Assembly: GCF_001506165.1 (NCBI RefSeq)
Contig: NZ_CP011427.1
Location: 620,001 to 684,000, forward strand
Source of the DNA: Pantoea vagans
GTDB taxonomy: Bacteria; Pseudomonadota; Gammaproteobacteria; Enterobacterales; Enterobacteriaceae
Direction of reading: 5' to 3'
DNA: 64,000 nucleotides
Under the pieces are notes generated by a model. It ran no database searches. It saw only the letters and a program-made list of their open reading frames with translations, and was not told the DNA's origin. This document shows positions 1,608 through 63,691 of the stretch, one piece after another (the stretch's first letter is position 1; the number at the start of each line of letters is the position of its first letter). The position numbers and the translations under genes were made by a program.

Positions 1608-1646
1608 CACGCTACCGCCCTTGGCTCAATAGCTACCAATGCACTG
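1608..1646 (-). promoter_or_regulatory. JUMPstart element with ops site upstream of kpsM
   Basis: Read on the minus strand, this 39-base stretch starts CAGTGCATTGGTAGC and ends with the ops core GGCGGTAGCGTG (1608-1619). It matches the JUMPstart sequence that precedes long polysaccharide operons in enterics. RfaH is recruited at ops to paused RNA polymerase and suppresses termination. It lies about 35 bases before the kpsM start, the expected place in the leader. Confidence 0.93.
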
Positions 1647-22401: not shown

Positions 22402-22473
22402 GATAACCCCGGCAGAGTCGGCTGTTGCCAGCCACTATATCATACCGGGAATTAACAGGTTGGAACTAAGAGA

Positions 22474-22657
22474 GGATCTCCGAGATGCCGCCGCAGGCTG
22501 TAACCCTTGAACCCATGGTTCAAGGTGAACATGCCGTCACAATTATTAGGCTTCTCGGACGGACCGAGCATGCGCACAAATTGTGGATCGTCACATTCTG
22601 TTGGTATTAAATATCGGCTCAGGGGACGGGCCCGCTTGCAAACATCTCAGAGAAAAT
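22474..22657 (-). ncRNA. ssrS: 6S RNA
   Basis: About 184 bases read on the minus strand. The 5' part (TTTCTCTGAGATGTTTGCAA) pairs with the 3' part (GGCGGCATCTCGGAGATCC) to close the rod; in between are the conserved CGGGCCCGTCCCCTGAGCCGA and GCATGCTCGGTCCGTCCGAG segments around the large central bubble. 6S RNA mimics an open promoter and holds sigma-70 RNA polymerase in stationary phase. Position between zapA and ygfA matches E. coli. Ends are estimated by alignment from memory and may be a few bases off. Confidence 0.95.
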
Positions 22658-51489: not shown

Positions 51490-52161
51490 ATGTCGGCTGA
51501 ATTTCAGCATCGTGAAGTGATCACCATCCCCGCACGCTACGGTAAAGCGGTGCGTTTGAAAAAAGGCGAAGCGGTGCAGGTGATCAACACCCACGGCACC
51601 CAGGTGGTGGATTGCTGGGCTTACAACGCGCACGACGTCAGCGAATATATGTGTATGGAAGCCACGCGCGTGTGGAACCAACGGCTGAACCCCAAAGTCG
51701 GTGACAGCTTTATCACCAGCCAGCGCCACCCGATTCTGACTTTAGTGGCGGATACTTCACCCGGCGTGCATGACTCTTTTATGGCCGCATGCGATGCGCG
51801 TCGATATGAGCTGCTGGGCTGTACGGAGTATCACCGTAACTGCCACGATAACCTGTTCGAGGGCATGCGCGAATTGGGCGTGGATTTACCGCATGGTAAT
51901 CTGGCGTCACTGAATATTTTCATGAACATTCAGGTGCAGCCGGATGGCATCACCCTGAAAACCTTGCCGGTGGTGACCAAGCCGGGCGACTACATCGTGC
52001 TGCGCGCCGAGATGGATTGCTTTGTGGCGTTTTCAGCCTGCCCGCAGGATATTGTGAGTATTCAGGGGCAGGGCGATAACACCCCGCGCGATGCCGAGTT
52101 GCGCATTCTGACCGCAGGTTTCCCGCAGCTGCAGCTGCAAGGGGCGTGGGTGCCCGCGTAA
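51490..52161 (+). CDS. DUF1989 family protein, copy 3
   Basis: 223 residues with an ideal AGGAG site. It is most like copy 1: GTQVVDCWAYNAHD near the N-terminus, HRNC at residues 115-118 and SACPQD with Cys184. It closes the operon; directly after its stop begins the structured non-coding region. Three DUF1989 proteins in one operon with a permease pair but no carboxylase is not an arrangement I know. It may act on the imported compound or on a product of copies 1 and 2. Confidence 0.85.
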   Translation: MSAEFQHREVITIPARYGKAVRLKKGEAVQVINTHGTQVVDCWAYNAHDVSEYMCMEATRVWNQRLNPKVGDSFITSQRHPILTLVADTSPGVHDSFMAACDARRYELLGCTEYHRNCHDNLFEGMRELGVDLPHGNLASLNIFMNIQVQPDGITLKTLPVVTKPGDYIVLRAEMDCFVAFSACPQDIVSIQGQGDNTPRDAELRILTAGFPQLQLQGAWVPA

Positions 52162-52195
52162 TGCTTGTCAGTCAAGCGACTGACGATAACGCCGT

Positions 52196-52638
52196 CTGGG
52201 GCCGCACCGGGGCTGGCGGTCCTCGCGCCGCTACGCGGTGCCTTCACTTCACTCGTCTGCCTTAACGGACCGGTGCCGATGGAACATCCATGTTCCAGCG
52301 CCACCTTTCGCCCGCGTCCTGCGGGCTCTCCTGGCATACTCGCTCAGCTCAGCGCTGCGGAATGCCTGCCCCGGTGCGGCCCCAGCCAGCTCATGAGCTT
52401 CAGTGCGTGTTGTTAAAAAGGGCACATTTCCTGAGGCGATGACGCCACTACTGCCCCCTCAGGGCTATCCGCAGCGCTGAGACTTTTACGTTGTGCCAGG
52501 AGCCCCACGCGGGGAGGCGTGGGGCAGTTCGCGGCCGACCATGGATGGTCATCCGCGAACGGTCCGTCCGGCACGACGTGGAAGTTGAAGGCACCGCGTT
52601 AGCGGCGCGAGGACGGCCCAGAGGGGGCAGTAGTGGCG
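52196..52638 (+). ncRNA. Candidate structured non-coding RNA or foldback element, unknown family
   Basis: Domain 1 is closed by a perfect 18-bp helix (52196-52213 with 52368-52385). It encloses hairpins 52225-52241 (7 bp, one G·U), 52280-52297 (TGGAACA-TCCA-TGTTCCA) and 52310-52326 (GCCCGC-GTCCT-GCGGGC). Domain 2 is closed by 52443-52460 with 52621-52638 (18 bp), continued after one A·A mismatch by 52462-52465 with 52616-52619. Further in lie a 15-bp helix with three G·U pairs (52483-52497 with 52570-52584) and hairpins 52502-52525 and 52528-52559. The G·U pairs work only if the plus strand is transcribed; on the minus strand they would be A·C mismatches. That favours an RNA over a plain DNA palindrome. 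No known family was recognised. Confidence 0.5.
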
Positions 52639-52710
52639 GCAGAGCCCGCACAGAAAAGTCAGGCCACTTATCAATAAGCAGTCTAAGTTCTTAACTGACA
52701 ATCATTACGC
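52600..52710 (+). repeat. 111-base dispersed repeat, copy 1
   Basis: From TAGCGGCGCGAGGACGGCCC to CATTACGC. It matches 57638-57748 at 102 of 111 positions with no gaps; the first 59 bases are identical. Its first part contains the 3' strand of the long domain 2 helix of the structured element. Confidence 0.92.
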
Positions 52711-52745
52711 CATTTATGGCGACCTTGATAATGATCGCACCGAAC

Positions 52746-53372
52746 TCAAGACTTCACCACCCCATCCAGCCATGCCTGAAAGCGCGCATAGGGCACATAC
52801 AGCGCGACATCTTTGTACAACGTCTTACCCGTCTTGTTGTCATCAATCTGGCTGCTGTAACCGACAATCACACCCGCTAAGGTATCGTCGCTGGCGTTAT
52901 ACACCGCGCCGCCAGACATGCCTTTCACCACGCCCGCATTGGCGGCAACCACCACGCAACTTGGTTTATTCCAGTCATTCGCCAGTGTGGTATTAATCAA
53001 ATTCTTGCCGCTGGAAGCTACCGGCATGGCAGAGATAAAGCTGTAACCGTAGAGATTCACGTTGTCGCCAATATGGCTGTTACGGAACGGCGGGGGCAGG
53101 TTAGTTTCGCTGTTTTTGTGGTACACCACGGCGATGTCACACTCCGGATGCCAGGCTTTCACCCGGTACATCGAGTATTTCGCCACGTGCGCCGCCGTCA
53201 GGCTGTATTCGGGGGTCAGAGGGATGGTGGTGCCCAGCGCACCAATACCCAGCACGGTAGGAATGCCGGTCACGGTCATGTCGACGCGTTTAGCCGCTTC
53301 TGAGCTGTATTCATAATGCCCAACCGAGCAGCCGCTTAAGCAACTTACTGTCAGTACGATCAGCCATCGCAT
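52746..53372 (-). CDS. Trypsin-like serine protease lipoprotein
   Basis: 208 residues from the ATG at 53372, preceded by AGGGGG. The signal ends in the lipobox LSGC with Cys15. A chymotrypsin-like triad is visible: His62 in SLTAAHV, Asp79 in ECDIAVVY and Ser153 in GMSGGAVYN. No PDZ domain is present and the length is that of a bare protease domain. Residue +2 is Ser, so an outer-membrane or periplasm-facing lipoprotein is expected. It is divergent from an MFS gene; a near-perfect CRP site lies in between. Physiological target unknown. Confidence 0.82.
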   Translation of the reverse strand: MRWLIVLTVSCLSGCSVGHYEYSSEAAKRVDMTVTGIPTVLGIGALGTTIPLTPEYSLTAAHVAKYSMYRVKAWHPECDIAVVYHKNSETNLPPPFRNSHIGDNVNLYGYSFISAMPVASSGKNLINTTLANDWNKPSCVVVAANAGVVKGMSGGAVYNASDDTLAGVIVGYSSQIDDNKTGKTLYKDVALYVPYARFQAWLDGVVKS

Positions 53373-55926: not shown

Positions 55927-57180
55927 ATGCCACGTCCACTGAACAACACTGAAACGGCGCTGACTGCCGCCAACTTACTGCCGCTGGCCCAGCGCTATGC
56001 AGGTCCCTTCTGGGCTTACGATGCCGCGATTATCCAGCAGCGTATCGCGCAGCTCAGCGCTTTTGACGTGGTGCGTTTTGCGCAGAAAGCCTGCTCCAAC
56101 ATCCATATTCTGCGTTTGATGCGTGCTGCAGGTGTAAAGGTTGATTCAGTTTCGCTGGGTGAAATTGAGCGCGCGCTGGCCGCCGGCTTCCAGCCGGGTG
56201 GCGAGGATATCGTCTTCACCGCAGACGTACTGGATGAACCTACGCTGGCACGTATCGCCGAACTGAAAGTGCCGGTCAATGCCGGATCGGTGGATATGCT
56301 GCATCAGCTCGGTGCGGTGTCCGCAGGACACAAAGTGTGGCTGCGTATTAATCCGGGCTTCGGTCACGGTCACAGCCAGAAAACCAACACCGGCGGTGAG
56401 AACAGCAAGCACGGCATCTGGCACAGCGATCTGCCGCTGGCGCTGGCCGCGATTCAGCAGCACGGCTTGAAATTAGTTGGCCTGCATATGCATATCGGTT
56501 CCGGCGTGGATTATGGCCACTTGCAGCAGGTGTGTGACGCGATGGTCGATCAAGTGGTGGCCTTTGGTCAGGACCTGGAAGCAATCTCTGCCGGTGGTGG
56601 GTTATCGATTCCGTACCGTTTCGGCGAAGAAGCCATTGATACGCAGCACTATTTCGGTCTGTGGAACGGTGCGCGCGAACGTATTGCGGCGCATTTGGGC
56701 CATCCGGTGAAACTGGAAATCGAACCCGGCCGTTTCCTGGTCGCAGAGTCAGGTGTGCTGGTGTCACAGGTGCGTGCGGTGAAAGAGATGGGCAGCCGCC
56801 ACTTTGTGCTGGTGGATGCGGGCTTCAGCGATTTGATGCGTCCGTCGATGTACGGCAGCTATCACCACATCTCCGTGCTACCAACTGATGGCCGTGCGTT
56901 GAGCGATGCGACGGTAGATTCGGTAGTGGCGGGTCCTCTGTGTGAATCGGGTGATGTGTTTACCCAGTTGGAAGGCGGCAAAGTCGAGACACGCGCACTG
57001 CCTGCTACCCAGGTGGGAGATTACCTGGTGTTCCACGATACCGGCGCGTACGGTGCATCCATGTCATCTAACTACAACAGCCGCCCGTTGATCCCGGAAG
57101 TGCTGTTTGAGAATGGCACGCCACGTGAGATCCGTCGTGCGCAGACCATTCAGGAGCTGCTGGCGCTGGAGCTGATGTGA
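55927..57180 (+). CDS. lysA: Diaminopimelate decarboxylase
   Basis: 417 residues. PLP enzyme that makes lysine from meso-diaminopimelate, the last step of the pathway. The PLP Lys is in VVRFAQKACSN, the HIGSG phosphate region in GLHMHIGSGVDYG, and the substrate/PLP segment in AGPLCESGDVF. It is controlled by the divergent lysR. A GNAT gene starts inside its stop codon (GTGA overlap) and is thus translationally coupled. Confidence 0.97.
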   Translation: MPRPLNNTETALTAANLLPLAQRYAGPFWAYDAAIIQQRIAQLSAFDVVRFAQKACSNIHILRLMRAAGVKVDSVSLGEIERALAAGFQPGGEDIVFTADVLDEPTLARIAELKVPVNAGSVDMLHQLGAVSAGHKVWLRINPGFGHGHSQKTNTGGENSKHGIWHSDLPLALAAIQQHGLKLVGLHMHIGSGVDYGHLQQVCDAMVDQVVAFGQDLEAISAGGGLSIPYRFGEEAIDTQHYFGLWNGARERIAAHLGHPVKLEIEPGRFLVAESGVLVSQVRAVKEMGSRHFVLVDAGFSDLMRPSMYGSYHHISVLPTDGRALSDATVDSVVAGPLCESGDVFTQLEGGKVETRALPATQVGDYLVFHDTGAYGASMSSNYNSRPLIPEVLFENGTPREIRRAQTIQELLALELM

Positions 57181-57632
57181 TCAAGATTGTCGCGCTCAGC
57201 GAGGTGCCACATCACGCCAGTCACATCACCGACTGGCTGTGGCAGGCGTTTGGCGAAGGGACCTCGCGCGAGTTTTATCACAGCATTGTGCGTAGTAGCC
57301 TGAATGGTGCCGACTATCCGGTGACCTTTGTGGCACTGGATGGTGATGTGCCTTTGGGCACGGTTGGGTTCTGGCGCTGCGATTTGATCAGCCGTCAGGA
57401 TCTTTACCCCTGGGTTGCCGCGCTCTATGTCGATGAACCTGCGCGCGGTCAGGGATTGAGTGAAGCACTGCAGCAGCATGTGATTGATTTTGCCCGCCAG
57501 CGCGGGCATGAGAAGTTATGGCTGTGGTCAACCTTTGGCGGCTACTACGAGCGCTTTGGCTGGGATTATCAGTGTGATGCGCTGGAGTTCCCGGACGTGC
57601 GGGTGAAGGTGTATTCGCAGGATTTGGCGTAG
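57177..57632 (+). CDS. GNAT-family N-acetyltransferase
   Basis: 151 residues from a GTG overlapping the lysA stop. The acetyl-CoA binding motif A is VAALYVDEPARGQGLSEAL (residues about 80-98). The coupling to lysA suggests, but does not prove, an amine or amino acid substrate. It ends six bases before the second 111-base repeat. Confidence 0.85.
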   Translation: MIKIVALSEVPHHASHITDWLWQAFGEGTSREFYHSIVRSSLNGADYPVTFVALDGDVPLGTVGFWRCDLISRQDLYPWVAALYVDEPARGQGLSEALQQHVIDFARQRGHEKLWLWSTFGGYYERFGWDYQCDALEFPDVRVKVYSQDLA

Positions 57633-57637
57633 AGCGG

Positions 57638-57748
57638 TAGCGGCGCGAGGACGGCCCAGAGGGGGCAGTAGTGGCGGCAGAGCCCGCACAGAAAAGAAAG
57701 GCCACTTATTAATACGCAGCCTGAGGTCTTAACTGACGAGCATTACGC
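57638..57748 (+). repeat. 111-base dispersed repeat, copy 2
   Basis: Matches 52600-52710 at 102 of 111 positions; the nine differences all lie in the last 52 bases. Here the upstream part of the structured element is missing, so the 5' strand of its long helix has no partner: a partial copy. It follows the GNAT stop by five bases. Confidence 0.92.
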
Positions 57749-61346: not shown

Positions 61347-61422
61347 CCCAGAGGTATTGATGGGTGAACATCAAAAAGTTTTCTTGATTACACCGACCTG
61401 CGCAGATGCGCAGGTTTTTTTT
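61347..61422 (+). ncRNA. omrA: OmrA/OmrB-type small RNA, first copy
   Basis: 76 bases. The 5' end CCCAGAGGTATTGATGGGTG is the conserved targeting region of OmrA/OmrB. The 3' end CACCGACCTGCGCAGATGCG continues to CAGG and eight T, the Hfq-type terminator with stem CCTGCGC-AGAT-GCGCAGG. In E. coli these OmpR-activated RNAs repress outer-membrane proteins (for example OmpT, CirA, FecA, FepA) and csgD, and lie as a pair next to galR. Which copy is A or B is not decidable, so the symbol is provisional. Confidence 0.93.
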
Positions 61423-63266: not shown

Positions 63267-63691
63267 TAAAATCAGGATGTAACTGCACAGTCTTGCTTTT
63301 CACACCTCGTTGCATTTCGCCGAACTCGGTTGCGATTTGCGGCTGTTCTCTTTCACTGCTTTCGGCGACGATGAAAGTCCCAGAGGTATTGATGGGTGTG
63401 ATGAGCGGCTGCTGCGGCAGCGATACCTGTCTTCAGGTATTCACCCTGTTCTGTTGCACCGACCCACGCAGATGCGTGGGTTTTTTTTGTCTTAAATTTA
63501 CCGGCACGCGAACTCGCTCACACCTCTTGTCTGAGTCTTAACACTTCCCCAGCAACATAAAAATATCTCGCCGTGTAACCTATATTCAACGCACCGCGAT
63601 GCCGCATTCCATTTCGGTTCGCCAGCCCTGGGCCGTGTTGGTAGCACGGTGCTGGGGCGTATTAATTTGTTATTCGTTGAGGACATCAGTG
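63267..63691. other. Region between PBP3 paralogue and the small DNA-binding gene
   Basis: Contains the second OmrA/B-type sRNA (63379-63488). The 200 bases after it hold no gene; an imperfect hairpin (GCCGTG/GCACGGT, near 63627-63650) is the only other structure. Confidence 0.6.
63379..63488 (+). ncRNA. omrB: OmrA/OmrB-type small RNA, second copy
   Basis: About 110 bases. The 5' CCCAGAGGTATTGATGGGTG is identical to the first copy for 20 bases. Internal hairpins are CGGCTGCTGCGGCAGCG and ATACCTG-TCTTC-AGGTAT-like pairs. The end is CCCACGC-AGAT-GCGTGGG plus eight T. The middle is longer and unrelated to copy 1. The terminator stems of the two copies differ at paired positions while keeping pairing (CCTGCGC/GCGCAGG against CCCACGC/GCGTGGG), which is compensatory and supports a real RNA. 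Copy name is provisional. Confidence 0.92.

Follow-up and report, generated by a model that had tools for sequence, protein, structure and literature searches.

What is the long, multiply folded segment that directly follows a DUF1989 gene in Pantoea vagans? In the window, i.e., the whole stretch of 64,000 nucleotides analysed here, positions 52196–52638 had been predicted from the letters alone to comprise two domains with long closing helices and to be a candidate novel non-coding RNA or an RNA-based mobile element rather than just a DNA palindrome, representing either the 3' UTR of the DUF1989 operon or an independent gene. An Rfam search and a count of compensatory changes in the long helices had been proposed as checks.

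A family of dispersed elements with IS4-type ends

Alignment of related copies, which was used to set the ends, places the segment in the interior of a 549-bp element (52159–52707, plus strand) bounded by 18-bp terminal inverted repeats of the IS4 type. The left repeat, TAATGCTTGTCAGTCAAG (52159–52176, plus strand), has near-identical counterparts at the ends of IS4-family insertion sequences of the genus, and its TAA serves the DUF1989 ORF as stop codon; the right repeat (52690–52707), found in an end-pattern scan, reads TAATGATTGTCAGTTAAG on the minus strand. Together with the dispersed copies and with the orthologous site, where the stretch examined is free of any match to the element in each of the 15 Pantoea genomes (the upstream gene was matched in 28 genomes, the window's own included, and 16 loci were compared), this alignment leaves very little doubt that the element is an IS4-type MITE, i.e., a non-autonomous transposon. 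Transposase sequences were sought in the ORFs 52165–52416 (plus strand) and 52062–52337 (minus strand), neither of which has a Pfam match at E ≤ 0.01; the protein-coding reading is accordingly rejected, in agreement with the original prediction.

A DNA search of the own genome yielded 10 matches of more than 400 bp (93–100% identity) and many partial copies, and half elements with a single module are present among the aligned copies of this genome. The end pattern TAATGCNNNTCAGTTAAG, with at most 2 mismatches, occurs 30 + 25 times in the genome vs 4 + 1 times for the reversed control pattern. The recurrence noticed earlier near position 57638 is real: it is the right-end remnant of a second copy (57634–57745, plus strand), located just 3' of the ORF 57177–57632, with 94% identity over 57634–57718 and the terminal repeat at 57728–57745. 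The terminal repeats, the genome-wide repeat family and the relationship between the domains, the second repeating the first in inverted orientation (~75% identity), had all been overlooked.

For comparative purposes, 48 copies of 500–640 bp were aligned out of 99 candidates, the set being gathered by DNA similarity; ten candidates were left out by hand for wrong or doubtful ends, one as a duplicate, and the rest for lack of an end or a deviating length. The 48 copies are not all independent because some are orthologous insertions (L064 and L277 share flanks).

Locus L009 (G000:C1:698974-699035) contains two left ends in tandem, perhaps through nested insertion or duplication. Two copies of the own genome (L028 54-1500 with L025; L029 with L010) are broken by ~1.45 kb at the same hairpin apex, equivalent to ~52277–52283, and the insert in L028 includes an rve integrase ORF and an HTH ORF; we take this insert to be IS3-like and perhaps an insertion sequence that targets the hairpin of the element.

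For the IS4 subgroup, PMC2266710 gives ends of the form -AATR--------WTW (Table 1) and target repeats of 10–13 bp. Compared with this listing, the right end of the window copy fits, the left end departs at one listed position (C for T), and the ends of most other copies fit; the duplication length expected from the same paper is observed in the family but not in the window copy. Among the 14 Nterm_IS4 loci of the genus, 12 bear both TAATGCCGATCAGTTAAG and TAATGCTTGTCAGTTAAG ends (two of the 12 overlap, L081 and L086 being the same place), and several copies of the element likewise have TAATGCTTGTCAGTTAAG as their left end. The annotated IS4 of E. coli has the ends TAATGCCGATCAGTTAAG and TAATGCCAGTCAGTTAAG; P. 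agglomerans copies of the element, e.g., L064 and L068, have TAATGCCAGTCAGTTAAG as their left end, too. Nterm_IS4 has a match in five of 60 genomes of the genus and none in the own genome. We infer that an IS4-family transposase would move the element in trans.

The IS4 subgroup (E. coli IS4 and its relatives) and the element are alike in ends, in duplication length and, by eye, in hairpin targets, given that the flanks of the IS4-family loci of the genus also look palindromic. They differ in that the former are ~1.4 kb long and encode a transposase, whereas the element is ~0.55 kb long, without a transposase and with an unrelated RNA cargo. Mobile insertion cassettes and MITEs of IS231, an IS4-family sequence of Bacillus, similarly have IS4-family ends without a transposase but carry protein genes or little cargo, and are not known to carry conserved RNA modules.

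Mobility and hairpin targets

Empty and filled versions of the same site can be compared on plasmids. At the 3' end of ugpC in P. agglomerans, the element of L064 lies between duplicated (C)GCCAGCGGC inside a terminator, which in L069 is uninterrupted (AAACCCGCCAGCGGCGGGTTTTTT); in P. vagans L070, the terminator is likewise uninterrupted, with a different sequence. Internally deleted elements are found at this site as well, L073 being devoid of domain 1 and L072 also of the spacer and part of domain 2. At a second plasmid site, L068 and L077 carry the element and L074 and L075 lack it; by the stem measure (stem 1 for L068), this site is not a hairpin.

With mismatches and a displacement of the right end by at most 2 bases allowed in the scoring, 33 of the 48 copies reach a target duplication score of at least 6, compared with 91 of 2256 swapped flanks. 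The duplications in these 33 copies are 8 (1 copy), 9 (1), 10 (2), 11 (6), 12 (12), 13 (3) and 14 bp (8) long, so that 29 fall within 11–14 bp. A stem of at least 7 in the reconstructed target was found for 32 of 48 copies vs 93 of 960 control stretches, and 18 of 48 combine a stem of at least 5 with a T-rich right or an A-rich left side. The empty sites and target duplications show that the element is mobile, and hairpin targets, some of them intrinsic terminators, are shown to be preferred.

The window copy has no target duplication. Its right flank contains the right part, CGCCATTTATGGCGACC (52708–52724), of a presumed target palindrome the left arm of which is missing, and near the orthologous site, L459 has an uninterrupted palindrome, GGTCGCCATTCATGGCGACC, of the GGTCGCC...GGCGACC type. 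Palindromes of the GGTCGCCATnnATGGCGACC type recur at insertion sites (52708–52724 and the flanks of several copies) and have the appearance of a dispersed repeat of the genus in its own right.

Two divergent modules with GGA loops

Pair counts and folding delineate two modules, which correspond to the domains of the original prediction: module 1 (52196–52385), with the GGA-sense on the minus strand, and its inverted copy, module 2 (52443–52638), with the GGA-sense on the plus strand. Both 18-bp closing helices (52196–52213/52368–52385 and 52443–52460/52621–52638) are recovered in the sequence and in the folds, and the 15-bp helix 52483–52497/52570–52584 with its three G-U pairs is likewise confirmed. 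Relative to dinucleotide shuffles, the fold energy corresponds to z of -14.3 for 52443–52638 (plus strand), -7.5 for 52196–52385 (minus strand) and -11.3 for the whole element (plus strand).

Over the 48 full-length copies, the helices together with the hairpin 52225–52241 have standard pairs in 90.9% of the cells, and the proposed count of compensatory changes yields 22 of 58 pairs altered on both sides. The covariation score is 0.182 vs a shuffled mean of 0.069, and is reached in 0 of 500 shuffles (at most 0.050 when partners are slid), which is not to be read as a probability because the copies are related; moreover, compensating stem changes can also arise by palindrome correction at the DNA level. 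One pair is unpaired in 34 of 48 copies in the 15-bp helix and one in 25 of 48 in the first 18-bp helix, and in the 7-bp hairpin 52225–52241 no pair has changed on both sides and one is broken in 36 of 48 copies.

The earlier argument that the structure is valid only for a plus-strand transcript holds for domain 2 but fails for domain 1, where the loop GGAs are on the minus strand. When G-U is allowed in the predicted structure, G-U exceeds A-C in both domains (162 vs 28 in domain 2; 150 vs 17 in domain 1); when it is forbidden, the cells in the GGA-sense number 24 vs 30 and 51 vs 17, respectively, and when the structure is predicted and counted on the opposite strand, 40 vs 26 and 17 vs 31. 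Because the biased count rested on a structure predicted on the same strand and the neutral counts are mixed, we do not use the G-U bias as support, and a plus-strand-only structure is rejected.

Each module contains two GGA-loop hairpins 30 nt apart. In module 1, the apical-loop GGAs (TCC on the plus strand) of the ACATGGATGT hairpin (52287–52289, minus strand) and the GCAGGACGC hairpin (52317–52319, minus strand) are kept, column by column, in 48, 48 and 46 of 48 copies and in 48 of 48 throughout, respectively; in module 2, the GGA of hairpin 1 (52513–52515, plus strand) is kept in 48 of 48 in all three columns and that of hairpin 2, CCATGGATGG (52543–52545, plus strand), in 47, 48 and 48. 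Thus, all 12 loop-GGA columns are retained in 46–48 of 48 copies, whereas six of the eight columns beside them are at 0.42–0.77, one at 0.88 and one at 1.0. Loops of the AYGGAY type are present on two hairpins per module, with strict AYGGAY not kept in every copy because the letters around the GGA vary. The window copy has two loop GGAs per module in the GGA-sense and 0 on the opposite strand; exactly two were counted in 44 of 48 copies for module 2 and 32 of 48 for module 1, a single one in 1 and 2 copies, and three or four in the remainder.

Conservation of GGA alone is modest evidence since many interior triplets are conserved (a quarter at 0.95 or above in each column) and few isolated ones are loop GGAs (three of the nine conserved interior triplets that are flanked by variable columns). 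In the alignment, what matters is that GGA is kept in all four apical loops.

The Rfam search matched module 2 to RF01731 (TwoAYGGAY) at 52472–52595 on the plus strand, with 49.1 bits, over the gathering score of 43, and module 1 at 52261–52333 on the minus strand, with 42.9 bits, just below this score. The motif was therefore already in Rfam, and the designation of the RNA as novel has to be abandoned. The own genome has 32 such matches, 25 of them over the cut-off. Our model of the module core, R1, scores 69.8 bits for module 1 (52257–52342, minus strand) and 64.4 bits for module 2 (52489–52575, plus strand), the window copy being among its building sequences. In 39 cores from Pantoea and other genera (alignment A2), the hairpin 1 stem is altered on both sides in 18–20 sequences at four pairs and its closing C-G is present in 39 of 39, with GGA conservation in this alignment being partly selected because 27 of the 39 rows were found with RF01731. 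We consider it probable that the element carries a conserved RNA cargo. The near-invariant loop GGAs and the compensatory stems suggest that a conserved structured RNA motif is a better reading than a bare DNA palindrome, as originally proposed; mobility is upheld too, but not RNA-based mobility, the element being a DNA transposon of the IS4 type.

The other RNAs of the window identified by Rfam are 6S (22473–22656, minus strand), two OmrA-B genes (61347–61422 and 63379–63488, both plus strand) and JUMPstart (1608–1646, minus strand).

The element was matched in 36 of 61 Pantoea genomes, and blastn gave no match in phages or E. coli. At the family level, 22 of 149 genomes have RF01731, 13 of them over the cut-off, and at the class level 24 of 369 have it, 16 of them over the cut-off, the own genome being counted each time; of 14 control genomes, none has it. 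Re-scored with the model, two first-scan loci from Clostridiales and Clostridia (L321, L327) gave only E 0.49 and no match, respectively. In an 18-mer scan of genome contigs, the matches listed mix Pantoea with apparent chance matches in GC-rich genomes; the same 18-mer matched 13 stretches in viral contigs.

At 123 of the 126 model-match loci, modules within 700 bp of each other are divergent in 57 cases (16 other genomes), convergent in 6 and tandem in 14; the 6 convergent pairs are found only in genomes G086 and G087, where divergent pairs stand in tandem. L109 (G086) and L132 (G087) are tandem arrays of divergent module pairs with a spacing of ~550 and 650 bp, and L117, L120 and L123 of the 3.8-Mb genome G145 have same-strand tandem modules ~330 bp apart; no IS4-type ends were noticed where L117 and L121 were read. 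P. agglomerans L15 has, at the 3' end of ugpC (L071, 842–922), a small lone GGA-loop module (27.1 bits with R1, E 0.00012), around which no IS4-type ends were seen, in the place where others have the MITE or the bare terminator.

When the 30 loci L033–L062 were scanned for IS4 ends with 4 mismatches allowed, only L039 (G009) had two ends at no more than 1 mismatch, and the idea that TwoAYGGAY generally comes with IS4 ends is rejected on this ground; by reading, IS4-type ends were recognized in L196, L198 and L201 (G017) and in L133 (G009). Because such ends are rare among the loci checked, repeats of more than one type seem to carry the module.

Gene context and the link to CsrA

The DUF1989 gene (PF09347, 51490–52161, plus strand) runs directly into the element, which, as originally suggested, could be its 3' UTR. 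The other suggestion, an independent gene, did not survive: a consensus scan of 52100–52760 found no promoter-like or terminator-like site, and an independent sRNA gene is not supported and was rejected on this account. Of the 30 own loci, 21 were scored for context, with genes taken as the longest ORFs rather than from annotation and with approximate extents for half copies. All 21 have a neighboring ORF pointing in, which in 18 ends within 100 bp; the left ORF reads in at 20, the arrangements being 11 convergent, 9 L+R+, 1 L-R- and 0 divergent. A gene reads into the element in all six annotated plasmid copies. The copies L012, L013 and L014, which consist of module 1 only, lie between co-directional plus-strand ORFs, so that read-through would yield the module antisense.

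We propose that an IS4-family transposase acts in trans on the element and that insertion into a terminator hairpin would part its arms. Transcription of the upstream gene, or of a convergent downstream gene, would pass the split terminator and the element would become the 3' UTR; the last module met would be read in the GGA-sense and join the 3' UTR of that gene. As the modules point away from each other, transcripts entering from either side would end in a GGA-sense module. Each of these, with its two GGA hairpins, could hold one CsrA dimer, and the copies would add CsrA-binding capacity, making host mRNAs CsrA-responsive. Transcription of the element and CsrA binding are both inferred from sequence. 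We lean, with some hesitation, toward this whole chain, that is, a mobile MITE that through read-through would make candidate CsrA-binding modules in 3' UTRs.

The involvement of CsrA is suggested by an earlier proposal on TwoAYGGAY, by the SELEX consensus and by a clan shared with CsrB. TwoAYGGAY was described as a candidate RNA in 2010 and presented in 2014 as a family of unknown function, for which a CsrA-binding motif and CsrA binding were proposed (PMC4333381). The SELEX consensus for CsrA is RUACARGGAUGU, with GGA in a hairpin loop in 51 of 55 ligands (PMC7652899), and paired GGA motifs suit one CsrA dimer, as described for pairing in general (PMC4383904). CsrB and TwoAYGGAY (RF01731) belong to the common Rfam clan CL00106. 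The csrA gene is present in the own genome and in all 44 other genomes that have RF01731 matches, which is a weak test, though one able to refute, because CsrA is common.

Several observations count against the proposed chain. The SELEX ligands mostly have no more than 4 contiguous pairs, and a very stable structure might be disadvantageous (PMC7652899); the stems of the modules are longer. The window copy has two loop GGAs per module vs 6 in loops, out of 20 in total, in the own csrB. The promoter-like site that was not found, the mixed G-U bias, the antisense-giving L012–L014 and the two conserved columns adjacent to GGA point in the same direction. Like CsrB, CsrC, RsmY and RsmZ, the element has GGA in hairpin loops, but it differs from them in its two loop GGAs per module, dispersed copies and lack of a detectable promoter; judging from the consensus scan and the loop-GGA count, it is, unlike CsrB-type sRNAs, not a dedicated many-site transcript with its own promoter. 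When the genome was searched for CsrB, the csrB locus was the sole match, and R1 had no match there.

DNA palindromes can stay perfect without selection on RNA, and the element could be a structural MITE without RNA function, in which the inverted repeats are kept by palindrome correction or slippage and the GGA loops are passively inherited. The well-supported IS4-type mobility, the internally deleted alleles L073 and L072, the mixed strand-specific wobble counts and the quarter of interior triplets that are conserved regardless are all compatible with this, but the near-fixation of GGA in four loops beside six variable columns out of eight is not readily accommodated, nor is the module in repeats of other genera and families, found with a GGA-favoring model, where most checked loci have no recognizable IS4 ends; we regard a purely structural role as rather unlikely.

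A bidirectional, REP-like 3'-end element that restores or replaces the split terminator and shields mRNA 3' ends without CsrA appears improbable: the absence of scored own copies between divergent ORFs (0 of 21), the frequency of hairpin targets and the high stability of the folds speak for it, yet a stable hairpin needs no GGA in every loop, and the scan found no terminator-like site in the window copy. An independent trans-acting sRNA gene with its own plus-strand promoter would agree with the strong plus-strand fold of domain 2 and with the excess of co-directional L+R+ over L-R- contexts (12 vs 1; 9 vs 1 for own and 3 vs 0 for plasmid copies), but is highly improbable given the lack of promoter-like or terminator-like sites in the scan, the opposite GGA-sense strands of the two domains and the dozens of dispersed full and partial copies. 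Against the candidate CsrA-binding MITE itself, which we still favor, we count the second site that is not a hairpin, the window copy without a duplication and the own genome without an Nterm_IS4 match.

The TwoAYGGAY motif and the CsrA proposal were already known; to these, the present analysis adds the transposon, its target and the arrangement of the modules in pairs. The modules share the two-hairpin core with GGA loops with TwoAYGGAY, which in the literature consulted is a single RNA motif, whereas here two inverted copies of it diverge within a mobile element of the IS4 type. Judged by titles and abstract openings, the open-licence papers listed contain no description of a MITE with a CsrA motif.

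The findings suggest that RF01731 matches in these genomes point to repeats and not to single cis-regulators, and that the cargo of a transposon may consist of possible sites for a global RNA-binding regulator instead of a protein. As a tentative extension, elements of this kind might be mobile CsrA sponges, which, through divergent modules and insertion into terminators, could turn 3' UTRs into CsrA sites, may have spread repeatedly in Gammaproteobacteria, and could bear on lifestyle shifts controlled by Csr. If true, transposition would be a route to the rewiring of a post-transcriptional regulon, and the divergent pairs that recur in dispersed repeats, and that in Pantoea have IS4-type ends and empty sites, offer a directly testable case.
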